Part shown: piece after piece, positions 5,289-21,365 of the stretch
Layout of the letters: each line of letters begins with the position of its first letter
Numbering within the stretch: position 1 is the stretch's first letter
From: Candidatus Galligastranaerophilus intestinavium
GTDB taxonomy: Bacteria > Cyanobacteriota > Vampirovibrionia > Gastranaerophilales > Gastranaerophilaceae
NCBI GenBank assembly: GCA_018716625.1
Contig: DVJQ01000065.1
Coordinates: 1-32,487, forward strand
Length of the DNA: 32,487 nucleotides
Reading direction: 5' to 3'
Position numbers and translations under genes: made by a program
The notes under the pieces: model-generated
Database searches by the model: none
Told to the model about the DNA's origin: nothing
What the model saw: the letters and a program-made list of their open reading frames with translations, nothing else

Positions 5289-6617
5289 TTGAGCGCACAA
5301 GGGGGTTTAGATAACATCTTTGATGAAAAAAAATGCGGTCAAATTTCAAGTGTTACAATGGAATTTGACGGTGAATTTTTGCCTAAAATTATTGAAGCGA
5401 CTCAAAATTTTTGGGAAGAAGAATTTGAATTTCGTGTTTTTGATGTAAACAATAACGAAAGAGTAAAAGAAGATTTATATTTGGAATACGACTCGTTTTT
5501 TATCAGTCAGGTGCCTTCAAAACACACTCCGCCCGTCACCATAAGACTTTCCGACGAGTTTATAAGGCTTATTTTGCACAATACATTTGGTTCAGACTTG
5601 CCCCTGTTTGAACTCAGCGACTTATCCGAACTTGAAATAAGAATACTAAACGGTTATTGCGATTTTATATACAAATCTTTTGCAAAATTGTTAACAGATG
5701 AGGACGAGCTAAATAAATTTGAACTTAAAAATAAAGAGGTTTACAATTTTGTAATTATAATTAAAAATAAAGACGAAAAAATTTCAAAAATTGTAATTAC
5801 ACTGCCCTCCTCAAGAATCAAAAGAAAAGAAATTCAAAAAGAGCAAAATTACAGTGATGATGAGTTTAAAAACATAAATGCATATGTTGATATCGAAGCG
5901 GGAAGTTCAAAAATCACGCTTAATGATTTGAAAAATATCTCACAAGGCGACATAATGCTGCTTGAGGACAGTTTTGTAAATAAAATGAAAATCATAACCG
6001 GAGAAAAAATAAGGGAATTTAAAATTAACCCTGACCCTGAACTTATGATTGAAATTGATGAAGATGAGCATGATATTGAGGGAGAGGAGAATACAAATAC
6101 AAATATGTGGGATGATATTCAAATAGAAGTTAATGCCCGTTTTAAAAAAATTAAAATGACTCTGGGCGAACTTAAACATATATCAAAAGGGCTTGTAATA
6201 GACCTTGGTTCTGTTTTTCATAATGAAATTTCGCTCCTTGTTGAAGAAAAAACCGTTGCAAAAGGCGAATTGGTAATTATAAATGACAAATACGCCGTTA
6301 AAATAAATGAAATAATAAGCGATATGCCAAAACAACCTCAAACTGAGCCAAAACAGCAACCTCAAGCACAAAATGCTCAACAGGAGGTGCAAAAACCTCA
6401 AGCGCAAAAAGCTCAAGGAGCTTCGCAAGCTCAGCCAAAACAACAAACACAAGCACAAAAACCTAAGGCTCAAAGACCTCAAGGAGCAGCTGCAGCACAA
6501 AGACCTCAGGCAACTGCACAAAGGCCGCAAGCTGCCGCACAAAGACCTCAGGCTGCAGCCAAAAAAGATGAGGTAGAGGAAGATTTTGATTATTCGGATT
6601 TTGAAGAAGATAAGTAA
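5289..6617 (+). CDS. Flagellar motor switch/SctQ-like protein with two SpoA (FliN-type) domains
   Basis: 442 residues. The N-terminal part (1-190) resembles the middle region of FliM/SctQ. Two SpoA domains follow: about 196-256 (AYVDIEAGSSKITLNDLKNI ...) and about 275-345 (IQIEVNARFKKIKMTLGELK ...), joined by an acidic linker (EIDEDEHDIEGEE). The tail (about 350-425) is low-complexity QRPQAAAQ repeats and ends acidic. FliM and FliN have one SpoA each; tandem SpoA in one chain is typical of injectisome SctQ. It should form the cytoplasmic C-ring or sorting platform below the export gate. The start is TTG at 5289 with AAGG at 5279-5282. It is the first gene of the fliO-P-Q-R operon. Whether it serves a flagellum or another export system is open. 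Confidence 0.85.
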   Translation: MSAQGGLDNIFDEKKCGQISSVTMEFDGEFLPKIIEATQNFWEEEFEFRVFDVNNNERVKEDLYLEYDSFFISQVPSKHTPPVTIRLSDEFIRLILHNTFGSDLPLFELSDLSELEIRILNGYCDFIYKSFAKLLTDEDELNKFELKNKEVYNFVIIIKNKDEKISKIVITLPSSRIKRKEIQKEQNYSDDEFKNINAYVDIEAGSSKITLNDLKNISQGDIMLLEDSFVNKMKIITGEKIREFKINPDPELMIEIDEDEHDIEGEENTNTNMWDDIQIEVNARFKKIKMTLGELKHISKGLVIDLGSVFHNEISLLVEEKTVAKGELVIINDKYAVKINEIISDMPKQPQTEPKQQPQAQNAQQEVQKPQAQKAQGASQAQPKQQTQAQKPKAQRPQGAAAAQRPQATAQRPQAAAQRPQAAAKKDEVEEDFDYSDFEEDK

Positions 6618-6628
6618 AAAGGAAAAAA

Positions 6629-7054
6629 ATGACAACACATATTGTAGCTTTTGTTTTTTACACACTTGCAATGCTTGGCGTTATGTTTATAGCGTTTAGC
6701 GTATATAAAAACGTGGTTTTGGGGCAAAATTCACATTCAACAAAATTAAAAATTGAAGATATGCTAAGGCTTAATCAAAGAAAATCTTTATACGTAATAA
6801 ATTATCAAGGTGAAAGATTTTTAATAGCCGGTGATAGTGACTCTACCACTCTTATTTCAAAACTTAACACCCAAGAAAAACAAAACAATAGTCAACAAAA
6901 TGTAGTGCAAATTCAAAAAGAGCAGCAATCACCTGCACAAGAAAGTTTTGAAACTCTTGAGGATAAACTTATTGAGCTAAAAAAACTTCATGGCTCAAAA
7001 AACGTTATGAGAACGATATTAAAAGAAATAAATTCAAACAAGGAAAGATACTAA
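6629..7054 (+). CDS. fliO: FliO-like flagellar export-gate assembly protein
   Basis: 141 residues. An N-terminal transmembrane helix (about 5-27) is followed by the FliO core: IEDMLRLNQRKSLYVINYQG, then ERFLIAGDSDSTTLISKL, matching the family's 'rrsl-lV--g-r-lLlG----it-L--L' pattern. After residue 85 there is a Gln-rich linker and a helical C-terminus. FliO is a chaperone that stabilises FliP oligomers during assembly of the FliPQR gate in the inner membrane; it has no injectisome counterpart, which argues for a flagellar origin. AAGGAA precedes the ATG; fliP starts 1 nt after its stop. Confidence 0.75.
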   Translation: MTTHIVAFVFYTLAMLGVMFIAFSVYKNVVLGQNSHSTKLKIEDMLRLNQRKSLYVINYQGERFLIAGDSDSTTLISKLNTQEKQNNSQQNVVQIQKEQQSPAQESFETLEDKLIELKKLHGSKNVMRTILKEINSNKERY

Positions 7055-7055
7055 A

Positions 7056-7694
7056 ATGGATGTACTTTTAAAAGACATAAATCCTGTTATACAGCTGCTT
7101 ATTGTGATGACTCTGTTCTCACTTTTGCCTTTTGTATTTTGCTGTATGACCTCTTTTTTAAGGTTTACAATTGTCTTTTCAATGTTAAAAACAGCCTTGG
7201 GTACTCAAAGTGTACCTCCTGCCATTGTTTTAATAGGTTTATCAATGATTTTAACATTTTATTCCATGTCGCCTGTTTTTGATCAGATGATAAAAGCCGG
7301 AGAGCCTGCTTATAAAAGTGGGAATATCGTGGAGTGTATTGCTCAGGGGTCAAAACCTCTCAAAGAATTTATGCTCAAACAAACACGCCAAAGTGATTTA
7401 GCGTTTTTTGTCGAAAAAACACGAAAAGAGCCGCCAAATACTCCTGATGAGCTTACCATGTGGGAAGTTGCGCCCGCTTATATCATAAGCGAGCTGAAAA
7501 CAGCCTTTGAAATAGGTTTTATAATTTTTGTACCTTTCATTGTGCTTGACCTTGTTGTGGCAAATATTTTACTTGCTTTAGGTATGTTTATGTTATCACC
7601 GACGATTATTTCTCTGCCGTTTAAGCTTTTAATATTTATTGCCGTTGACGGTTGGAGTTTAATTGTAAAAGGACTTGTGGAGAGCTTTAACTGA
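7056..7694 (+). CDS. fliP: Flagellar/type III export gate protein FliP
   Basis: 212 residues. Core subunit of the FliP5Q4R1 export gate in the inner membrane. Signature segments are MTSFLRFTIVFSMLKTALGT and SVPPAIVLIGLSMILTFYSM near the N-terminus, and VPFIVLDLVVANILLALGMF then SPTIISLPFKLLIFIAVDGW near the C-terminus. Four transmembrane segments and a central hydrophilic loop (about 78-145) are visible. It lacks the cleavable signal peptide of many flagellar FliPs and in length is closer to injectisome SctR. AAGGAAAG precedes the ATG. Its TGA overlaps the fliQ ATG. Confidence 0.96.
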   Translation: MDVLLKDINPVIQLLIVMTLFSLLPFVFCCMTSFLRFTIVFSMLKTALGTQSVPPAIVLIGLSMILTFYSMSPVFDQMIKAGEPAYKSGNIVECIAQGSKPLKEFMLKQTRQSDLAFFVEKTRKEPPNTPDELTMWEVAPAYIISELKTAFEIGFIIFVPFIVLDLVVANILLALGMFMLSPTIISLPFKLLIFIAVDGWSLIVKGLVESFN

Positions 7695-8185
7695 TGGAAA
7701 TAATGGTAGAATACCTTGCAAAAGGTTTTATGACAATGCTTATGATTTCGCTGCCCTGCGTACTTGTTGCAGCCTCAATAGGTCTTGTGGTAGGTATTTT
7801 GCAGGCAGTTACACAAGTACAGGAACAAACAATTGCCGCTGCGCCAAAAATTATTGCAGTATTTTTGACTATCATTATTCTTGGGATGTGGTATATTAAA
7901 TTATTGACGGAATTTGTTATAGAAGGCAGTGCAATTGCATTTAATGTATTGCCCCATAATGAAGAATACGTACTGGAATCTAACTATTACAAACACACAA
8001 GACCTTTTGCAAATGAGATGTATGATAAAGTTGATGGATCTCAGAAAGATTTGAAAGAAATTATGAAAAATCCGGGAAAACTCCCTTGGGTCGATAAAGC
8101 GGAAAAAAGCACATACGGCGCAGCAAAAAGGGGAGAAAACCCGACACCTAATTTTATAGAAAAGAAAAAAATAATGGGGAGGTAG
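7694..8185 (+). CDS. fliQ: Flagellar/type III export gate protein FliQ with C-terminal extension
   Basis: The first 90 residues are a normal FliQ: two transmembrane hairpin helices, with SLPCVLVAASIGLVVGILQA, then TQVQEQTIAAAPKIIAV. FliQ is usually about 90 residues; this one has 163. The extra 73 residues (from HNEEYVLESNYY) are hydrophilic, Lys/Glu-rich and end in KKKIMGR; I recognise no domain. The extension follows the second helix, so it would lie on the same side as the FliQ C-terminus. Start ATG at 7694 overlaps the fliP stop (TGATG); ATG at 7703 is an alternative. The reading frame is intact, so this is not a frameshift with a neighbour. Confidence 0.93.
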   Translation: MEIMVEYLAKGFMTMLMISLPCVLVAASIGLVVGILQAVTQVQEQTIAAAPKIIAVFLTIIILGMWYIKLLTEFVIEGSAIAFNVLPHNEEYVLESNYYKHTRPFANEMYDKVDGSQKDLKEIMKNPGKLPWVDKAEKSTYGAAKRGENPTPNFIEKKKIMGR

Positions 8186-8188
8186 ATT

Positions 8189-8572
8189 ATGAAAAAGACA
8201 CTTGCGATTTTAGGACTTATGTTATCCTTTGGCGCGGTTTGTGCTTATGAAATCGATGCCAACAGCATATTTCGCCAAGGTAACAGTGTAGGATTAAAGC
8301 CAAATTCAAGATATACAATTTCTTGTCCTTCAATTATCGAAAATGTTGAAAATGGTGAAAAAAGCAACATAAAATTTTTCTTTATGGATAACGAACCTTT
8401 TAAAACAGGCGACAGAGCTGCAAGTACTCTTGTGATAAGAACTTATGAGCCTTCAAATTCTTATTTTAAAGTCTTCACCCAAGACGGTAATACACAGGCG
8501 ATAAAATATAACGTAAATGAAAAATACAACAAAATGGGTGCAATTGTGGGCAACTGCAGAATTGAACCCTAA
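8189..8572 (+). CDS. Secreted protein of unknown function inside the export-gate operon
   Basis: 127 residues. A clear Sec signal peptide ends at residue 19 (MKKTLAILGLMLSFGAVCA, cleaved before YE). The mature 108 residues have no recognised domain; they contain two Cys (SCPS and GNCRIEP) that could form a disulfide and look beta-rich. GGGAGG lies just before the ATG, overlapping the fliQ stop, and the gene is followed 10 nt later by fliR. Its position suggests a periplasmic or outer-membrane partner of the export apparatus; this is inference from context only. Confidence 0.85.
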   Translation: MKKTLAILGLMLSFGAVCAYEIDANSIFRQGNSVGLKPNSRYTISCPSIIENVENGEKSNIKFFFMDNEPFKTGDRAASTLVIRTYEPSNSYFKVFTQDGNTQAIKYNVNEKYNKMGAIVGNCRIEP

Positions 8573-8582
8573 AAAATAACTT

Positions 8583-9362
8583 ATGGACTTATTTTTGGCA
8601 CAATTTGCAAAACTTTTTCCCGAGCTCAATCTTGCATTGGGCGCGGGTATTATGGTGTTTAGCAGACTCTTGGGGCTAATGCAATTTGCACCACCCTTTA
8701 ACAGAAAAGAAGTCCCCTCCCTTGTAAGGCTTTCAATGGCTCTTATTATAACAGTGATTGTCACTATGCTTATAAAACCCCAACCTATCCCTCCAAATAC
8801 TTCAATTATGATGGGAATACTTTTAAACTATGCTTTCGGGGCAATTTTGGGCTACATTGCAAACTGTATACTTGCTGCAATAAGTGCAGGCGGGGATATG
8901 ATAAATACTCAAATGGGACTTTCGTCTGCTATGGTTTTAGACCCGACAACCCGTTCGCAAACTTCTATTTTGGGCAATTATTTTACAATTTTAGGCTTGA
9001 TAATTTTTATAAGCGCAGGCGGAGCGTATTGGCTACTAAATGCTTTCATAAGGAGTTTTGATGTTTTTGGAATGTATCAGACAATCATTCCCTTGTCAAA
9101 AGTCATTAATATTGACTATCTGGTAGTTATTACCTCAAATGTACTTTATTTTGGCATGCAGCTTGCCGCTCCTGTTTTGCTTGCGACTTTGGGTCAGGAC
9201 ATAATCTTAGGTATAATTTCAAAAACAGCCCCGCAGGTAAACGTATTTCAGCTCAGCTTTTTGTTCAAGCCGGTTATGGGTGCGCTTATTTTAATTTGGA
9301 TTTTACCAATGCTAATAAACGTTATAACCGATTATATGACTTCTTATGCAAGTATTTTCTAA
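8583..9362 (+). CDS. fliR: Flagellar/type III export gate protein FliR
   Basis: 259 residues, normal length. Six to seven transmembrane segments; family positions are FSRLLGLMQFAPPFNRKEVP near the N-terminus, AGGDMINTQMGLSSAMVLDP in the middle, and LGQDIILGIISKTAPQVNVF near the C-terminus. It is the single FliR subunit that closes the FliP5Q4R1 gate. No Shine-Dalgarno precedes the ATG. flhB, which often follows or is fused to fliR, is not in the window: the next gene is convergent and only 5 nt away. Confidence 0.96.
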   Translation: MDLFLAQFAKLFPELNLALGAGIMVFSRLLGLMQFAPPFNRKEVPSLVRLSMALIITVIVTMLIKPQPIPPNTSIMMGILLNYAFGAILGYIANCILAAISAGGDMINTQMGLSSAMVLDPTTRSQTSILGNYFTILGLIIFISAGGAYWLLNAFIRSFDVFGMYQTIIPLSKVINIDYLVVITSNVLYFGMQLAAPVLLATLGQDIILGIISKTAPQVNVFQLSFLFKPVMGALILIWILPMLINVITDYMTSYASIF

Positions 9363-9367
9363 ATGTT

Positions 9368-10426
9368 TTATGAAACTACTTTGCTTAGTCCATGGGGCTT
9401 ATCAACGTTGCGATTTAAAATGAGCGCGATTTTTAGCGAAAGCATTTGTACAACAAATACAACACTTAAAATTCTTGTCAATAAATCTTCGCTGTAGGGA
9501 AATACTACTGCTATTTTTGAGCAGAATTTTTCCTGACAGTCGGTTATAACAACGCTTTTTGGACCGTAATCGTCATTTATTTTATCAAGAGTTTTTATTT
9601 CAAAATTGCAAAAGTTGCTTGTTATAATTTCAACAACCGTATCAATTTTATTTAAAATCGCGATGTGCCCATGTAAAAATTCGCCCATAGAACAAGAATT
9701 TGCGTCTATATAAGATGTTTCTTTTATTTTAAGAGCGCACTCGCGAGCAAGAGCGTAGTTTGCTCCCTGACCTATTACACTGAAAGCTTTGTATTTAGAT
9801 AAAAATTCTGCAGCTTTGTCGATGTTTAGTGTTAAATCTAAAACGCTCTCGATATTTTTTTGCACTTCGTCAATGTTTTTTAAGTATTGAGCAGTGTCTA
9901 AAAGTTTATTTTGAGCAATTTTCAGCGCACAAAGATAAAGGGCGCAAATGCTTGCGCTAAAAGATTTTGTTGCGGCAATAGAGTTTTCAACTTTTGCGTT
10001 AATGTTTATTTTATAGTCGCAAAGTTCCCACAGGGTAGAGTTTTCATTGTTAACTATTGCATAAGCCCTTGCTCCTGCCTCTTTTACTTTTCTTGCAGCA
10101 AGTGTTGTGTCATAGGTTTCGCCTGATTGGCTTATAAAAAAGTATAAAACAGTTTTATCCGGTGTTTTTTCGCTGCAAATAAATTCGCCCGAGAAAATTA
10201 CTTCTGTGTCTGTTTGTGCAATTTTTTCAAAGAAAGTTTTTGCGACAAGTCCGCAGTTGTAAGAGGAACCGCTTGCAATGATTTTAACCTGCCTTACAAT
10301 TAAAGGCATATCAAGCGTTACAGCATAGTTTTCAACATATTTTGAAATAAGTGAGCCAATAATACTTGATTGCTCGAGTATTTCCATTTCCATTTTTGTT
10401 TGTTTTGGTTTTTTTGAAAAAAACAT
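9368..10426 (-). CDS. SIS-domain protein, GlmS isomerase-like without glutaminase domain
   Basis: 352 residues with two sugar-isomerase (SIS) domains, about 45-180 and 210-340. Visible GlmS-like motifs: EMEILEQ at the start, ASGSSYNCG, ISQSGETYDT, ATKSFSASI, GQGANYALARECALKIKE, SMGEFLHGHIAIL (matching the catalytic GELKHGP region) and a C-terminal DKPHGLSKVV like DxPRxLAKSVT. The N-terminal glutamine amidotransferase domain of GlmS is absent, so it probably acts as an isomerase/deaminase on an amino-sugar phosphate or phosphorylated glycated amine (AgaS or FrlB type). Start ATG 10426 has AGGT upstream. Not an assigned glmS. Confidence 0.85.
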   Translation of the reverse strand: MFFSKKPKQTKMEMEILEQSSIIGSLISKYVENYAVTLDMPLIVRQVKIIASGSSYNCGLVAKTFFEKIAQTDTEVIFSGEFICSEKTPDKTVLYFFISQSGETYDTTLAARKVKEAGARAYAIVNNENSTLWELCDYKININAKVENSIAATKSFSASICALYLCALKIAQNKLLDTAQYLKNIDEVQKNIESVLDLTLNIDKAAEFLSKYKAFSVIGQGANYALARECALKIKETSYIDANSCSMGEFLHGHIAILNKIDTVVEIITSNFCNFEIKTLDKINDDYGPKSVVITDCQEKFCSKIAVVFPYSEDLLTRILSVVFVVQMLSLKIALILNRNVDKPHGLSKVVS

Positions 10427-11948: not shown

Positions 11949-12259
11949 ATGAACAAGAACAGATTATTGCAGATATGCAACAAGTTGTAGAGCAAATGTT
12001 TAAAGATGATGTTGAGGAAAATCCTGACTCGTTGAATGAATATTTTGACTGCAGTGCTTGCGGCAAAAATGCGCCTCTGGCTGGCTCTGTTCAATATGGC
12101 AAATACAGACTTTGTAATTCTTGCGTTCTGCTTGCAGAAACAGGTTTTGCTCTTAAAAAATTTAACAATATCCAAGCACTGATTGATGCTATGGAAGATA
12201 AGCGCCTTGAGGAGCTTTGTGACTTTATCAAAAAAGACGAGGCAAAGGGAAACAACTAA
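11945..12259 (+). CDS. Small zinc-ribbon-like protein coupled to the preceding gene
   Basis: 104 residues. Acidic N-terminal helix (about 1-32), then FDCSACGKNAPLAGSV and YRLCNSCVLLAE, a CxxC-x(19)-CxxC pattern typical of a zinc ribbon, then a helical C-terminus (DAMEDKRLEELCDFIKKDE). Function unknown; possible protein-protein or nucleic-acid binding. Its ATG overlaps the preceding TGA by 4 nt. Its stop is shared tail-to-tail with kdsA (CTAA at 12256-12259). Confidence 0.8.
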   Translation: MNEQEQIIADMQQVVEQMFKDDVEENPDSLNEYFDCSACGKNAPLAGSVQYGKYRLCNSCVLLAETGFALKKFNNIQALIDAMEDKRLEELCDFIKKDEAKGNN

Positions 12260-13074
12260 AGTGTCTTTGTTAGATCAAAAAGTTTTTTCAAGTCGGAAAA
12301 TAATTCATAAGCGTCATCAAGTGCAATCATATTATCCCCGTCGCACTTAGCACAGCTTGGGCATGGGTGAATTTCAAAAAATAAAGCCCTTGCGCCTGCC
12401 GCAATAGCGCTTTTTGCAAGTAAGGGAACAAATTTCCTTTCACCGCCCGAGCTTTCCCCGCGTCCCCCAGGTAATTGAACGCTGTGAGTAGCGTCAAACA
12501 CAACAGGATAGCCCATTTCCTGAATAATTTGAATTGAGCGCATATCGACAACTAAATTGTTATAACCAAAACTTGTGCCGCGCTCTGTTATTAAAATTTT
12601 ATCGTTGTTGCTGTCTAAAACTTTCTTTGCAAGCGAGTCCATCTGATAAGGGGATAAAAACTGTCCTTTTTTGATATTTACAACTTTTCCCGTTTCAGCC
12701 GCAGCAACAAGCATATCGGTCTGTCTGCACAAAAAAGCGGGTATCTGCAAAACATCAGCCACGCGTGCAACCTCTTGCGCTTGATAAGGCTCATGAAAAT
12801 CAGTCACAACAGGCACATTGAACTTTTGTTTTACTTCATTTAACATATCCAAGCCCGCTTTAAGCCCGGGGCCTCTGTAGGAGTTGATTGACGAGCGGTT
12901 TGCCTTATCGAAACTTGCTTTAAAAATGTAGTTAATATCAAGCTTATTACATATTTCTTTTAATTTTTGTGCACACAAAAAAAGCATGTCAGAATTTTCT
13001 ATTACGCAGGGACCTGCAAAAATAGTAAGCTTATTGCCGCCGATTTCAAAATTGTTAAGTTGTACTGTTTTCAT
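12256..13074 (-). CDS. kdsA: 3-deoxy-8-phosphooctulonate synthase (KDO-8-phosphate synthase)
   Basis: 272 residues, normal length. Condenses phosphoenolpyruvate and arabinose 5-phosphate to KDO-8-P for lipopolysaccharide inner core, so the host is expected to be diderm. Motifs: FAGPCVIENSD, FKASFDKANRSS, SYRGPGL, VTDFHEPYQ, DATHSVQLPGG and FFEIHPCPSCAKCDGDNM. The Cys in AGPC (Asn in the E. coli metal-independent type), with the His, Glu and Asp in later motifs, indicates the metal-dependent class. The unusual CPSCAKCDGD adds two extra Cys near the active-site Asp. A TATAAT ends 7 nt before the ATG and no Shine-Dalgarno is present. Confidence 0.97.
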   Translation of the reverse strand: MKTVQLNNFEIGGNKLTIFAGPCVIENSDMLFLCAQKLKEICNKLDINYIFKASFDKANRSSINSYRGPGLKAGLDMLNEVKQKFNVPVVTDFHEPYQAQEVARVADVLQIPAFLCRQTDMLVAAAETGKVVNIKKGQFLSPYQMDSLAKKVLDSNNDKILITERGTSFGYNNLVVDMRSIQIIQEMGYPVVFDATHSVQLPGGRGESSGGERKFVPLLAKSAIAAGARALFFEIHPCPSCAKCDGDNMIALDDAYELFSDLKKLFDLTKTL

Positions 13075-15942: not shown

Positions 15943-17331
15943 ATGAACTTTAAACAAGCACTTGACTATACAAATAAATTTTATAGACTTTTGAGAAAAA
16001 TGAATACTCAGGGCACATCATTGCCGGGGAAGTATTTAAGGAAATTTTATCCGAATTTTTTAAAGGAATCGCAAAATTATGTGACTTCTTACAAATTTGC
16101 AATAACGGGTACTAACGGAAAAACCACAACAGCAGGACTTTTGGCTCAAATTTTAAAAGAAGCTCAAAAAAGCGTTATACATAACGAACTGGGCGCAAAC
16201 ATGCCAAACGGTATTGCAACTGCTATTGCGCTTGGGTTATACAATAATTTTAAAGAAAAAGGCGAGGAGTCAAGCGTAGACAACCTTGTAATAGAGTCTG
16301 ACGAGGCTTATTTAAGGGAAGTTTTTGAAAACATTATATTTGATTATCTTTTAGTTACAAATCTTTTTCGCGATCAACTTGACAGATATGGCGAGCTTGA
16401 TATAACAAAAAAGAAAATTCAAGAAGGTATCAGAATAAATCCTGACTTAAAAATTATTCTAAATGCAGATGACCCGGGGCTTTATGAAATTGAAAAAAAT
16501 ATAAAAAATGACATGCTTTTGCCAAAAAAGAAAAGAAAAGTTTTGTATTTTGGCTTTGAGGATGTTGAGTTTTGTGATTTTGATGCACAATCAAACAGTC
16601 CCTCTGAGGTAATTTACTGTCCTGTATGCAAAAAACCGCTTAAATATACAAAAAGATTTTACTCTCAGCTTGGACTTTGGAGTTGTGCTTGTCGTACAAA
16701 AAGACCAAGACCTGATGTTTGTGCCAACGTTAAAGTGTTTAAAAATTATTCTATACTTAATGTCCGCTACGAGGGCAAAAGTATTATGTATAAATTAAAT
16801 CTTTCGGGTTTATATAATGCCTACAATGCTCTTGGTGCAATTGCATGTGCTTATATGGCGCAAATTGACAGAAAAATAATTGCTGCCGCACTTGATAATT
16901 ACAAGCCTGTTTTTGGAAGGTCGCAAAGAGAAGTTATACAAGGGAAAGAGCTGAAAGTTCACCTTATAAAAAATCCGACAGGTGCATGCGAGGTTTTAAG
17001 GAGCTTAAAAAATTCAAAAAATACAAAATTAATGATTGCAATAAATGACAAATATGCAGATGGCAGAGATGTTTCTTGGCTTTGGGATGTTGATTTTGAA
17101 ATATTGCAAAAGTTTGATAATAAAATATATGTTACAGGTACGCGAGCTGACGATATGGCACTAAGGCTTAAATATGCAGGTGTGAACTTGAGTCATCTTG
17201 TTATTGAAAATGACATTAAAAAGACTTTTAACTTTGCGCTAAAATCTGTTGAACCTGATGAGAAGCTTGTTATTTTGCCGACATATACAGCTTTGCTAAA
17301 ACTGGATAAAATTATTAAAAGCAAGCTCTAA
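15943..17331 (+). CDS. murT: Mur ligase MurT (lipid II isoglutaminyl synthase, large subunit)
   Basis: 462 residues. MurT with GatD amidates the alpha-carboxyl of Glu in lipid II. Motifs: TGTNGKTTTAGLLAQIL (ATP binding, about 53-70), HNELGANMPNG, ESDEAYLREVF, TNLFRDQLDRYGELD and LNADDPGL; a MurT-specific zinc-ribbon insert, CPVC (about 226) and CAC in SQLGLWSCACRTKRPRPDV; and the C-terminal DUF1727 (NPTGACEVLRSL, AINDKYADGRDVSWLWDVDF). These rule out MurC-F and FolC. gatD normally sits directly beside murT but is absent here. The stop is shared tail-to-tail with the FlhA-like gene (CTAA at 17328-17331). Confidence 0.93.
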   Translation: MNFKQALDYTNKFYRLLRKMNTQGTSLPGKYLRKFYPNFLKESQNYVTSYKFAITGTNGKTTTAGLLAQILKEAQKSVIHNELGANMPNGIATAIALGLYNNFKEKGEESSVDNLVIESDEAYLREVFENIIFDYLLVTNLFRDQLDRYGELDITKKKIQEGIRINPDLKIILNADDPGLYEIEKNIKNDMLLPKKKRKVLYFGFEDVEFCDFDAQSNSPSEVIYCPVCKKPLKYTKRFYSQLGLWSCACRTKRPRPDVCANVKVFKNYSILNVRYEGKSIMYKLNLSGLYNAYNALGAIACAYMAQIDRKIIAAALDNYKPVFGRSQREVIQGKELKVHLIKNPTGACEVLRSLKNSKNTKLMIAINDKYADGRDVSWLWDVDFEILQKFDNKIYVTGTRADDMALRLKYAGVNLSHLVIENDIKKTFNFALKSVEPDEKLVILPTYTALLKLDKIIKSKL

Positions 17332-18779
17332 ATTTGTCCTAAAATTTTCAGTTCAAATTCGCTTGAAATTTCTTCAGGACAAATTACTGTAATATCGGTG
17401 TAGATTTGCGATATTAAAACAAACAAAAGTTGCCTGTAGTGTTGTGGTGCAACAAGTACTACTTTTTGTTCATTTGAGAATATGTTTTTTAATTCTTTTT
17501 TAAATTTAGAAAACTTTGTGCCGTCTATTTTTACAACTCCGTCAGATTCTTCATAAGATTCATTTTGCAGCATTTGTATAATTTCTTCAGATACTTCATA
17601 TCCAAAAATTTGTTTATCTTCATTGGCACAGCTCCAACTAATTTGGTGGCAAAGTGCCGTTCTGAGCTTTTCCAACAAATCGGTTTTTGTTGAATCATCC
17701 GAGAAGTCGTTTATTTTTTCAAAAATAAACACAACGTCTTTTACGCTTACTCTTTCGCGAATTAAGCTGCAAAAAATGTATTTTAACTCAGAAACAGAGA
17801 TAAAATCACCCAATATTGAATCAATTAAAAATGAATTATGTTCAGATACAAGTTCTATATAGCGGTTCATGTCATTGTAGCTGAAAATCTCGTTTACATG
17901 AGTTATGGCATAATGTTTAAGATATTCTACAACGTATTCGCAAGGTGTTATTCCTTTTGCCCAAAAGTCCTTGCAGGCATTTTCCTCTATCCAAACAACT
18001 TTTCTGTTTGTAAGCGGGTCTTTTGTTTTTATTGAATTTTTCGGGTATTTTTCAAGATTTAATTCATCTTCAAAAAACATTACATGTCCTAAATAAGCCT
18101 TAGAGCTTGCAACAGGAACTGCATGTATTGATATTGTAAAAGCATTTTCTTCAAGCTCGGGATTTTCAACAAATTGAACTTTTGGGATAATATAGCCAAG
18201 CTCCGAAGTGAGTTCCTGACGAGCTTTTATTGTTTGAGCAAGCAGGTTTTGTTCACTTTGCCCGTTGTTTAAAAGATAAAGCTCCTCGCTTAAATTAATT
18301 GAAAGACGTTCTACCCCAAGGTTTTGAACCATTTTAGAAGGTGAGAGCAAACTTTTGAGTTGTTTTTTTAAATTGTTGAGTTTATCGATTTCTTTTGAAA
18401 TTTCTTCATTTAAAAATTCGCGCTCATCATCCTTTGCACTCTCTAAAAATTTCTTTATTTCTTCAATTTTTGCGCGCCTTTCGCGAATTTTCTTTTGAAT
18501 ATTTAAACACAATTCATAAGGCTGCTCTTTCGAATAGAGCATTTTTTCCATCTGAGTTTTAAAACCTAAAATGTCTTCAAACTCTGCCTCGTCATAGAAA
18601 TTTTCGACTTCTCTAACGAAAATGCAATTATAGACAAGCTTAGAGCCGTTATCAGCCTCGTAGATAGAATATAAATCCCAGCCTTCTTTTGTCATGGAAT
18701 TAAGAGTATTTTCTAATAGCGTGACTTCGTCACAAGGGCAAACTTTTATGGTAAATTCCTGACGCGTAGGTTTAAACAT
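17328..18779 (-). CDS. Soluble fusion protein: DUF4177-like domain, coiled coil, FlhA cytoplasmic domain
   Basis: 483 residues, no transmembrane segment. Residues 1-60 (ENTLNSMTKEGWDLYSIYE, then LVYNCIFVRE) resemble the DUF4177 fold. About 92-150 is a charged coiled coil (KKIRERRAKIEEIKKFLES ...). From about 150 to the end it matches the whole FlhA C-domain: ARQELTSELGYIIPKVQFVE, a degenerate VEVARG strand (AVPVASSKAYLG), RKVVWIEENACKDFWAKG, PCEYVVEYLKHYAITHVNEI, SVSELKYIFCSLIRERVSVK, LRTALCHQI, and the terminal KVVLVAPQHYRQLLFVLISQ with VICPEEI in place of VLSYNEI. FlhA normally has about 330 N-terminal residues with eight membrane helices; they are absent here and no broken frame explains it. 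A likely role is binding export chaperone-substrate complexes; this is inference. Confidence 0.8.
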   Translation of the reverse strand: MFKPTRQEFTIKVCPCDEVTLLENTLNSMTKEGWDLYSIYEADNGSKLVYNCIFVREVENFYDEAEFEDILGFKTQMEKMLYSKEQPYELCLNIQKKIRERRAKIEEIKKFLESAKDDEREFLNEEISKEIDKLNNLKKQLKSLLSPSKMVQNLGVERLSINLSEELYLLNNGQSEQNLLAQTIKARQELTSELGYIIPKVQFVENPELEENAFTISIHAVPVASSKAYLGHVMFFEDELNLEKYPKNSIKTKDPLTNRKVVWIEENACKDFWAKGITPCEYVVEYLKHYAITHVNEIFSYNDMNRYIELVSEHNSFLIDSILGDFISVSELKYIFCSLIRERVSVKDVVFIFEKINDFSDDSTKTDLLEKLRTALCHQISWSCANEDKQIFGYEVSEEIIQMLQNESYEESDGVVKIDGTKFSKFKKELKNIFSNEQKVVLVAPQHYRQLLFVLISQIYTDITVICPEEISSEFELKILGQI

Positions 18780-19136: not shown

Positions 19137-19270
19137 ATTCTTCCTTTTATTCTCTAAATATATTATAAAATACTTTTTTATTGAAAATCGGCATGTATAT
19201 TATTCTTATATAAATATTGTAATAATATTTAATAGTGGAAAAATCACACTTATTTGTGTTATTATTTTAT

Positions 19271-19528
19271 AGCCACGCTTCACGGGGTGTTGCAAGCCCT
19301 CGACCGAAAGCTTATGTCGGGTGCAAAGCCTGCTATGAGGCATAGCGAATGTAAATTGAAAGTCGAAATATTGTTGATAACCTAGATGTTTGCGGCGATT
19401 ATGCAGCGAACCGTGTCAGGATGGAAACATAGCAGCACTAAGTTGACGTTAACGGGTGTGAGCATTTAGGGGGTAGATGTTTTGTATCGTAGGTTTATAT
19501 TTTCTGTGACGATAGGCAGGGCGTGGCT
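19271..19528 (+). ncRNA. ffs: Long (Alu-domain type) signal recognition particle RNA
   Basis: The helix-8 core is clear at 19413-19438: GUG/CAC closing pairs, the symmetric UCAGG/AGCAG internal loop, AUG/CAU and a GAAA tetraloop, the binding site for Ffh. The ends pair over 8 bp: AGCCACGC (19271-19278) with GCGTGGCT (19521-19528). About 258 nt is far longer than the 110-nt 4.5S type; the 5' third holds a G-rich Alu-like fold with hairpins, including GCTATG-AGG-CATAGC (19332-19346). This matches the bacterial large SRP RNA class. A TATTAT at 19260-19265 is a plausible -10. The T-rich stretch after 19527 lies over the end of the convergent gene. It fills the 393-nt gap between coding genes. Confidence 0.9.
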
Positions 19529-19529
19529 T

Positions 19530-21365
19530 TTATCTTTTGTTTTCTTCTTCGCACTGTTTTGAAAATACGCAAGTTTTTAAGACGTCTGTGTATTTTTTAT
19601 CTAAATGTGCCCAATCAAAAAGCACTATGCCTTGAAGGTTTTGGTTTCTTATTATATGAATTTGTTTCAATAAATCTTCGCTCTCGCCTTCCATAAAACC
19701 AACAAATAATCCCGGGTAGATTTTTGTCTTGGACGACGTTTTTCTTTTCATTTCTTCCAACATGGAATTTGCAAGGTTGTAGTCTGCAGTTAAAATCAGG
19801 GGTGTTAAGGCATCTACATAGCCGTAAGAACTCCACCTTTGCCAGTTTTGTTGTTTTGTTTCAAGACTTGATTTGTAATCAGGGAAAACAACTGTGCTAA
19901 GCATAACTCCGCGGTCTTTTATTGCGTCTTTAACGCTTGCAACATATCTTGAAATTCTCTCTTGCCTGTAGTTGTCCCATTTGTTCCACATAGCGGCATT
20001 TGAGTTTATTTTTATCGGGTCAACACCGTATATTTTTTTGAATTCTTCTCTTGCATATGGTGTATAACCCCAGTTTGAAGCTTCATAGTTCGATGATGAA
20101 GATTTAGCACTCAGGGGGTACCTTACATAATCAAGATTTACACCGTCTATGTCGTATTTTGCACAAATCTCAAGGATTAATTTAACTAAAAAGTCTACAA
20201 CTTCAGGATTTGCAGGGTCGATAAAATATCCGCGATGTTCGCTCATATGCGCAACAGGCTGATTTGATTCGCTGTTTGCTTTGTTTCTGTTGCCCCAAGC
20301 AGGTTTTATTGCAAGAATATTATAAGCATCCTCCTGCGGGAGATTGTTGCCTATATAAAATGATTCAAACCAAATATGCAGTTTCATATTACGTTTGTGC
20401 GCGCCGCGAATCCAAGCAGAAAGCGGGTCGTAGCCTCTAAAATTTTTGTTTTGACCTTCAAATCCGTAACTTTTCATAACTTCTGAGGGGAAAATAGTTT
20501 TGCCATGGAAGTATGTTTCTAAAAATATAGTATTTATGCCCAACTGAGCCATCTCGTCCAATGTATGCTCAACTTCCGATTCGCTTTTTTGAACAGGGCG
20601 AACCCATACACCTTTAAGCTCGTCTTTCAAGTATGGCAGAGTGTAGCTTAGTGCAATTTGAGAAGATGTAATGGAATTTTTTGCGCTTTGAAGCGCTGAA
20701 TTGGAATTTGATGAACAAGAGCGTTTAAGCTCTTTTTTTGCTTTTTTTAAATATTCTTTAACTTTTTTATCATCACGATTTTTATACTGTTTTTTTGTTT
20801 TTTCAAGTATTTGCTCTACTTCATTAATTTTTACTTTTGCGTAATATCTGTAGCTGCTTATTGTTGTAAAGGAATGTAGTATACAGTTTTTTTCATCAAT
20901 TCTTACTTTTGTACCGACCTTTAAATTTTCGCCAATCCACTTGCTTGCACTGCCATGCCCGCTTATAACAAAACCGTCATGCGGGATTATGGAGTCCGCA
21001 CCTGTTAAGCGCACAACAGTGTCCCCTACAACAACCGCCTCTTTGCCGAATTCATTTGTAAGAGTTCTTCTTCCGTATTCTCTTTTATAAATTACAAGCT
21101 GGTTGGGACCGCGATTTCCTGGGAAAGATATGCCAAGTTTGTTTACGCGATTGCTTGGATAAATTGCATCAATTTTTCTTGATGATTTGGATATTATTCT
21201 GTCTTTTTTTGAAAGTTTTCCGTATTCAACGCCTGATTCGCTTTCACTGTCAAGTTTTAGCGTATTTGTATCTGAAATCTCAAGAAGCGCATCTTTTTTT
21301 GCGGCATACGCAGGTATGTTTAAAAGTAACACTAAAAATAATACTATCGCAAAAATTTTTTTCAT
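19530..21365 (-). CDS. Secreted GHL10 (DUF187) family glycoside hydrolase-like protein
   Basis: 611 residues. A signal peptide of about 21 residues ends PAYA. Residues about 25-170 form an N-terminal domain with a GFVISGHGSASKWIGE motif like that found before phosphodiester-glycosidase and GHL domains. Residues 170-235 are Lys-rich helices. From about 248 comes the GHL10 TIM barrel: ELKGVWVRPV, LGINTIFLETYFHGKTIFPS, WIRGAHKRNMKLHIWFESF, HRGYFIDPANPEV, DIDGVNLDYVRYP (probable catalytic Asp) and LQGIVLFDWAH near the end. Relatives such as DigH cleave denuded peptidoglycan glycans, so a cell-wall role is likely. The promoter TTGCAC-17-TAGAAT ends 9 nt before the ATG. Confidence 0.88.
   Translation of the reverse strand: MKKIFAIVLFLVLLLNIPAYAAKKDALLEISDTNTLKLDSESESGVEYGKLSKKDRIISKSSRKIDAIYPSNRVNKLGISFPGNRGPNQLVIYKREYGRRTLTNEFGKEAVVVGDTVVRLTGADSIIPHDGFVISGHGSASKWIGENLKVGTKVRIDEKNCILHSFTTISSYRYYAKVKINEVEQILEKTKKQYKNRDDKKVKEYLKKAKKELKRSCSSNSNSALQSAKNSITSSQIALSYTLPYLKDELKGVWVRPVQKSESEVEHTLDEMAQLGINTIFLETYFHGKTIFPSEVMKSYGFEGQNKNFRGYDPLSAWIRGAHKRNMKLHIWFESFYIGNNLPQEDAYNILAIKPAWGNRNKANSESNQPVAHMSEHRGYFIDPANPEVVDFLVKLILEICAKYDIDGVNLDYVRYPLSAKSSSSNYEASNWGYTPYAREEFKKIYGVDPIKINSNAAMWNKWDNYRQERISRYVASVKDAIKDRGVMLSTVVFPDYKSSLETKQQNWQRWSSYGYVDALTPLILTADYNLANSMLEEMKRKTSSKTKIYPGLFVGFMEGESEDLLKQIHIIRNQNLQGIVLFDWAHLDKKYTDVLKTCVFSKQCEEENKR

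Follow-up and report, generated by a model that had tools for sequence, protein, structure and literature searches.

A large SRP RNA with a divergent Alu domain in Gastranaerophilaceae

The SRP RNA gene and its surroundings

The window, that is, the whole stretch of 32,487 nucleotides analysed here (contig DVJQ01000065.1 of Candidatus Galligastranaerophilus intestinavium), contains on its forward strand an SRP RNA gene (ffs / scr) of the large form, about 258 nt long, at positions 19271-19528. SRP RNA binds Ffh through helix H8 and serves co-translational targeting. The Rfam model of the bacterial large SRP RNA (RF01854, Bacteria_large_SRP), when run alone against the genome, gives a single match, at 19273-19526 on the forward strand. 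It covers the model from end to end (positions 1-256 of 256), with a score of 61.1 bits and an E-value of 7.4e-9. Membership of this family was taken to mean passing the gathering cut-off over the full model length, and the locus does so at 61.1 against 60. The S domain with the Ffh-binding core of H8 (GUCAGG ... AGCAGC) was found at 19379-19475 (+), the interval matched by the small SRP model (RF00169, Bacteria_small_SRP; 47.3 bits), and the latter match represents the core of the S domain within the long RNA. The locus is a real bacterial large SRP RNA, correctly placed, ordinary for its family and a member of RF01854.

In a default Rfam scan, run on the window and on a stretch of 311 bases, clan competition removes matches ranked lower within a clan, so that RF00169 alone is reported, at 19379-19475. 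The initial annotation had proposed to compare the two models and had taken a match to the small one alone as the outcome that would speak against the long form. The plain scan produces this outcome wrongly, through clan competition; in the comparison itself the large model matches over its full length and the small model matches the core. The small-SRP label was given in this way to two of six scanned loci of the window's family or of the canonical long form, namely the window and its nearest relative L032. In L032 Rfam reports the small model at 451-547, though the large model matches at full length; L003, L010, L016 and L031 are labelled large by the same scan. Thus annotation pipelines may mislabel large SRP RNA genes as small.

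Control genomes set the weight of missing matches. RF01854 detected SRP RNA in 6 of 14 of them, and the genome of Bacillus subtilis, the textbook carrier of a long SRP RNA, was not among the six, as neither RF01854 nor RF00169 had any match in it. Therefore absence of matches to these models elsewhere is weak evidence.

A probable extended -10 element (TG, one base, TATTAT) is situated at 19257-19265 (+), within a promoter scan hit at 19236-19265 that has TG ahead of the second hexamer. The scan relied on the consensus only and found three sites against 1.4 expected in shuffled sequences, and thus this prediction is rather weak; another of its matches is at 19374-19402. The upstream region is T-rich and then A/T-rich at the same place in 123 relatives, and a T-rich stretch directly following the RNA recurs in 124. 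A scan for terminator-like sites found none.

The adjacent gene (19530-21365) encodes a protein with a GHL10 domain. The kdsA gene for KDO-8-phosphate synthase (12256-13074, complementary strand; NF003543, 406 bits with an equivalog cut-off of 242) is consistent with a diderm host, as had been suggested, although this rests on one gene. The host had also been described as related to cyanobacteria, which agrees with its named relatives being Candidatus Gastranaerophilales. Profile searches of the same genome identified both protein partners of a functional SRP, Ffh (561 bits) and FtsY (318 bits), and two HU-family proteins.

The window also contains a row of genes similar to fliN/sctQ, fliO, fliP, fliQ and fliR, together with a gene of an FlhA-like protein (5289-9362, forward strand, and 17328-18779, complementary strand). 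The export genes are above the Pfam cut-offs, and FliP alone is above those of NCBIfam. The FlhA-like protein matches profile positions 321-656 of 657, the second half, while its first 132 residues match nothing, which suggests a predicted cytosolic FlhA domain lacking the membrane part. A SIS-domain protein (9368-10426, complementary strand) resembles the isomerase half of GlmS and lacks the glutaminase half; its score of 225 bits does not reach the cut-off (381).

Helices, covariation and the divergent Alu domain

In the minimum free energy fold of 19271-19533 the ends are closed by an 8-bp stem, 19271-19278 with 19521-19528. The length, the ends and the terminal pairing given by the initial annotation fit this structure, the ends being structural rather than transcript-mapped. 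The fold has an energy of -84.5 kcal/mol and a z-score of -2.42, and one of 200 dinucleotide shuffles folds equally well. Such a value for a single sequence is too modest to decide against chance folding, and therefore covariation was used; it is the covariation in 124 homologues that counters chance folding.

The alignment comprises 124 of the 128 genomes of the family Gastranaerophilaceae (f1) with an RF01854 match. Left out were G271 and G156, with full-length but weaker matches, and G168 and G082, for which match coordinates were lacking (in G082 the small-SRP match begins at contig base 1); thus the alignment favours well-scoring sequences. The helices of the Alu domain were defined manually, with the Rfam model and the fold of the window as guides, and this choice may likewise give them an advantage in the slide control. 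For the Alu end, 25 pairs were counted (H1, H2, H3, H4 and the outer part of H5), which are standard in 98.4% of cases (n=124). Two-sided changes were observed in 16 of these 25 pairs, with a mean of 10.5 in shuffled alignments, and in 216 pair-by-sequence cells, with a shuffled mean of 41.3; neither value was reached in any of 500 shuffles. One of the five measures, the number of further pair types, shows no clear excess (33 vs 30.8 in shuffles, 69 of 500 as high). When the 3' partners were moved by one to three columns, pairing fell to only 40-51%.

The covariation is distributed over the whole structure. H1 (5' strand 19271-19278, 3' strand 19521-19528, both on the forward strand) joins the two ends of the RNA; it is paired in 95.3% of cases, and seven of its eight pairs have two-sided changes, with exchanges between GC and AU, UA and CG, CG and UA among relatives. 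The 5' strand of H2 (19279-19283, +) pairs with 19321-19325 in 100% of the sequences, and here two of the four counted pairs have two-sided changes, in one and three sequences respectively. The H3 hairpin (19284-19300, +; stem 19284-19287 / 19297-19300, loop L3 19288-19296) is paired in 99.5%. The H4 hairpin (19304-19320, +; stem 19304-19307 / 19317-19320, loop L4 19308-19316) is paired in 100%, with two-sided changes in three of four pairs, one of which was seen as CG, GC, UA and AU. Thus the 5' part of the Alu domain, H2 to H4, is present and paired at 99.5-100%. The H5 arm leads to the S domain (19330-19519, +); its outer stem, 19330-19333 / 19516-19519, is paired in 100% with GC/AU and UA/CG changes, and its inner segments in 82-98%. 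The S domain and H5 covary likewise, although the inner pairs were predicted by RNAalifold from this very alignment, which biases their paired percentages upward. The first proposal, a long form that includes an Alu domain, is borne out both by the full-length RF01854 match and by the covarying H1-H4.

The architecture agrees with RF01854 in the full-length 1-256 match, in H1, H2, H3, H4 and H5 and in the S domain. The differences, which the initial annotation had not mentioned, are all in the Alu domain. After H3, uGUA is conserved in the consensus of RF01854, and UGUA or UGUGA (the UGU motif) is found at this place in canonical long forms. The window has the linker UCGA (19300-19303, +; U19300 also closes H3), and all 124 sequences of the family have U[CU]GA (UCGA in 68, UUGA in 56), the UGU between H3 and H4 being found in none. 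This lowers the case for a canonical Alu domain, but not that for membership of RF01854, as the score and the helices are in place. The loop of H4 is three to four nucleotides shorter in the three members of the family that were aligned to the RF01854 model.

The third difference concerns the contact between the two loops, where a reduced pseudoknot of two putative tertiary pairs is possible at 19292-19311 (+): G19292-C19311 and C19293-G19310. The site is homologous to the 5-bp AGCGG:CCGCU contact of canonical forms, whose five continuous pairs were not found in the family. In 29 of the 124 sequences (type A) the candidate contact has 4 bp, and its end pair is complementary in every case, being A-U in 15, G-U in 8 and U-A in 6. 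In 94 sequences, including the window (type B), the number of pairs is mostly two (82 sequences), less often three (11) and once four; a single sequence, L099, belongs to neither type. An AAGC:GCUU pairing that can be drawn by eye in the window was rejected, since it is no homologue of the canonical contact. The window has two pairs instead of five. Its score is near the RF01854 cut-off.

The canonical long SRP RNAs found in other families of the phylum (L002-L009; families f4, f6, f10) have the same architecture at 264-273 nt, and match the full model with 138-174 bits against 61.1 in the window. Read by eye, they carry UGU in seven of eight cases (UAU in L009) and AGCGG:CCGCU loops in seven of eight, whereas Gastranaerophilaceae have neither. 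The scRNA (6S SRP RNA) of B. subtilis, as described in excerpts of PMC8137916 and PMC8881573, is alike in having an Alu domain without SRP9/14, H1 and the Ffh partner. Excerpts of PMC8137916 further describe the pseudoknot of bacterial and archaeal Alu domains as five continuous pairs and that of human as three, the UGU as conserved and H1 as the substitute for SRP9/14. Compared by description, the five pairs of B. subtilis correspond to only two to four here. Judged by its sequence, the Alu domain of the Gastranaerophilaceae SRP RNA is a divergent variant of the known large form; H1 is retained and the rest of the domain pared down.

Distribution and history in the phylum

The survey covered 292 genomes of the phylum. 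Here f2 is the sister family of Gastranaerophilaceae, f3 belongs to the other order of their class, and f4, f6 and f10 are outside the class; the labels 'oxygenic', 'non-photosynthetic' and 'Vampirovibrio-like' were assigned in this analysis, for example by tree position. RF01854 matches in 128 of 130 Gastranaerophilaceae genomes, in 114 above the cut-off and in 14 below, and every one of the 126 matches with positions listed spans the model from 1 to 256. Of the two genomes in which it found nothing, G176 has a match to the small model that lies 149 bases from the end of a contig, and G069 has no match at all. The small model was found in 285 of the 292 genomes.

Outside the family the picture is mixed. 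None of four f2 genomes is above the RF01854 cut-off, although in G292 a match of 39 bits extends across 1-256 within 175 nt. Neither is any of the 11 genomes of the f3 order; seven of them match at all, with only the core covered. In ten cyanobacterial-type genomes with positions shown, the core alone (about 109-211) is matched. The S-domain core is common to the window and to the SRP RNAs of f2, f3 and cyanobacteria, but in those of their loci that were read by eye, H1-H4 were not seen, unlike in the window. Loci L057-L060, which have no core by the search pattern, were left unclassified in this reading. On the other hand, the canonical long form is present at full model length in the eight genomes of f4, f6 and f10. 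Six more genomes outside the class (G026, G021, G044, G041, G032, G001) exceed the cut-off by matches that are short or partial (96-230 nt), and thus a basal long form is not a uniform trait there.

The initial annotation had expected the short form in relatives of cyanobacteria and had considered the long one an oddity. The expectation holds for the sister family, for the other order of the class and for the cyanobacterial genomes with positions shown. The oddity does not survive comparison with closer and more distant relatives, given the 128 of 130 genomes of the family and the eight canonical forms in three other families. Likewise, a survey of the class Vampirovibrionia, which it had recommended, finds RF01854 matches in all but two genomes of the family and none above the cut-off in f2 or in the f3 order.

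The Ffh tree was built from 29 proteins of the phylum, taken from 30 of the 292 genomes (G240 gave none), and was rooted with E. coli on a long branch. Families f4, f6, f10, f13, f14, f17 and f20 are outside a clade (96/93) that unites the oxygenic-type genomes with (f3,(f2,f1)), and f2 is joined to f1 (100/99). The S-domain tree (44 sequences, 98 columns, 13 of the 124 sequences of the family, bootstrap not settled) keeps f1, f2 and f3 on the same side of one branch (98/96), but f2 goes with f3 there (89/100), contrary to the Ffh tree. Neither tree includes Firmicutes. The position of the f1 S domain argues against replacement of the whole gene in this family. Taken together, the two trees lean towards an inherited long form with repeated loss. 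Most likely, the long form was inherited from an ancestor within the phylum, kept in Gastranaerophilaceae and lost in the cyanobacterial line, in f3 and in f2. Synteny was considered as a test of vertical descent and proved uninformative, since the neighbours differ among genera of the family and among families.

Locus L056 (genome G021, family f13) looks intermediate, with a long hairpin arm and the 5' helices of the Alu domain (H2-H4) apparently gone.

In genome G240, which belongs to the same class as the window (family f3; e.g. locus L237) and is rated 96% complete, Ffh was not found and FtsY gave nothing above a 27-bit match, while both were found in 14 of 14 control genomes. SRP RNA is absent from it by RF01854 and RF00169, models that miss some control genomes. 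The gene adjacent to ftsY in G236 also occurs in G240, inside a 156-kb contig, with a thioredoxin-like gene (our own reading) at the place of ftsY, whereas the neighbour of ffh has only a match of 31% identity. It is possible that the whole SRP pathway has been lost, or that contigs are missing.

Candidate function and alternative explanations

The preferred reading, to which we assign a probability of roughly four in five, is that of an inherited large SRP RNA retained in Gastranaerophilaceae, with a pared-down Alu domain whose end slows elongation as in B. subtilis. H1 closes the ends of the RNA, H2-H4 form the 5' Alu domain and H5 the long arm, and the S domain would bind Ffh via H8. Together with Ffh and FtsY, the RNA would bring ribosomes synthesizing membrane proteins to the membrane. 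Most likely, by analogy with B. subtilis, the Alu end reaches the factor-binding site of the ribosome and slows elongation until docking. In B. subtilis, elongation arrest is described as 'dock-and-block' in excerpts of PMC8137916, and those of PMC4359368 cite ribosome profiling in support of slowing; the pause reported there falls 45-65 codons past the first membrane segment. Transcription, the ribosome contact, the slowing and any binding of HU are steps that we infer. What is observed is a full-length structure maintained through compensatory changes, a single match to RF01854 in the genome, and the presence of the genes of Ffh, FtsY and two HU proteins. Conserved compensating helices indicate that the Alu end is in use. 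The 5' Alu domain is pared down in the family, by replacement of UGU with U[CU]GA, shortening of the H4 loop and reduction of the putative pseudoknot from five pairs to four or two. With UGU lost and the pseudoknot weak, docking may differ from that in B. subtilis, or may no longer occur in that way.

The simplest alternative is that only a small SRP RNA of about 97 nt (19379-19475) is made and that its flanks are incidental. The label given by Rfam under clan competition and the promoter-like match at 19374-19402 would fit it. However, the Alu helices covary strongly outside this interval, the full-length match to RF01854 is above the cut-off, and the conserved flank composition is located at the ends of the long form. 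Covariation beyond the core is the main reason for rejecting an S domain alone, without H1-H4, and this alternative seems to us extremely improbable. It is also doubtful, although a good deal easier to imagine, that the long form is a vestige whose Alu domain no longer arrests elongation and remains as a protective structural end-cap. The UGU missing from all sequences, the mostly 2-bp pseudoknot of the 94 in type B and the lack of the domain in f2 and f3 are what one would expect of such a remnant. But H2-H4 are almost invariably paired and have compensatory changes, the end pair of the type A pseudoknot covaries, and for an end-cap H1 alone would suffice.

The remaining alternative concerns the origin of the RNA: the long form may have disappeared from Gastranaerophilaceae as it did from their relatives and have come back by horizontal transfer, for example from gut Firmicutes, with which Gastranaerophilaceae share the gut habitat. 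Equal-weight parsimony on the Ffh topology prefers one loss and one regain (two steps) to three losses. However, such a history requires that a foreign Alu domain was joined to the native S domain, or that the donor is absent from the sampling. The grouping of the S domain with those of f2 and f3 speaks against it, as do two departures from the Rfam consensus, the deletion in the loop and the linker U[CU]GA, and we consider it quite improbable. The inherited long form thus remains the preferred explanation.

Tentatively, one may go further and ask whether Gastranaerophilaceae represent a distinct bacterial class of Alu domains, UGU-less, with a minimal pseudoknot, maintained by selection and adapted to altered docking on the ribosome or to another partner. 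Close relatives would then have lost the domain and one genome of the neighbouring order perhaps the whole SRP, forming a natural series of SRP simplification. This is conceivable, but we would not bet on it.

Primary surveys include Regalia 2002 and Rosenblad 2009, besides a nomenclature paper. The Alu domain is typical of Gram-positive bacteria and typically lacking in Gram-negative ones, according to excerpts of PMC4359368 (citing Regalia 2002), and the short form is called probably ancestral in an excerpt of PMC1586193. The long form is canonical in deeply branching families of the phylum, persists in altered form in Gastranaerophilaceae and is lacking in the groups around them, which suggests instead that the short SRP RNA of cyanobacteria is derived. 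The expected range of the long SRP RNA shifts accordingly, and sister lineages with and without the Alu domain become available. Gastranaerophilaceae and their sister families may serve as a testbed for the idea, put forward in PMC4359368, that other pauses compensate for an absent Alu domain. In the open-access library searched we found no paper linking Gastranaerophilales with the signal recognition particle, although earlier reports are possible; excerpts of PMC7203096, a paper retrieved for Melainabacteria and SRP, contain none of the RNA terms looked for.

In L003, L006, L008 and L056 (families f6, f10, f13) the next gene after that of the SRP RNA, in the same orientation, is DnaJ/CbpA-like (our own reading, by eye); the neighbourhood of the first three differs in this from that of the window.
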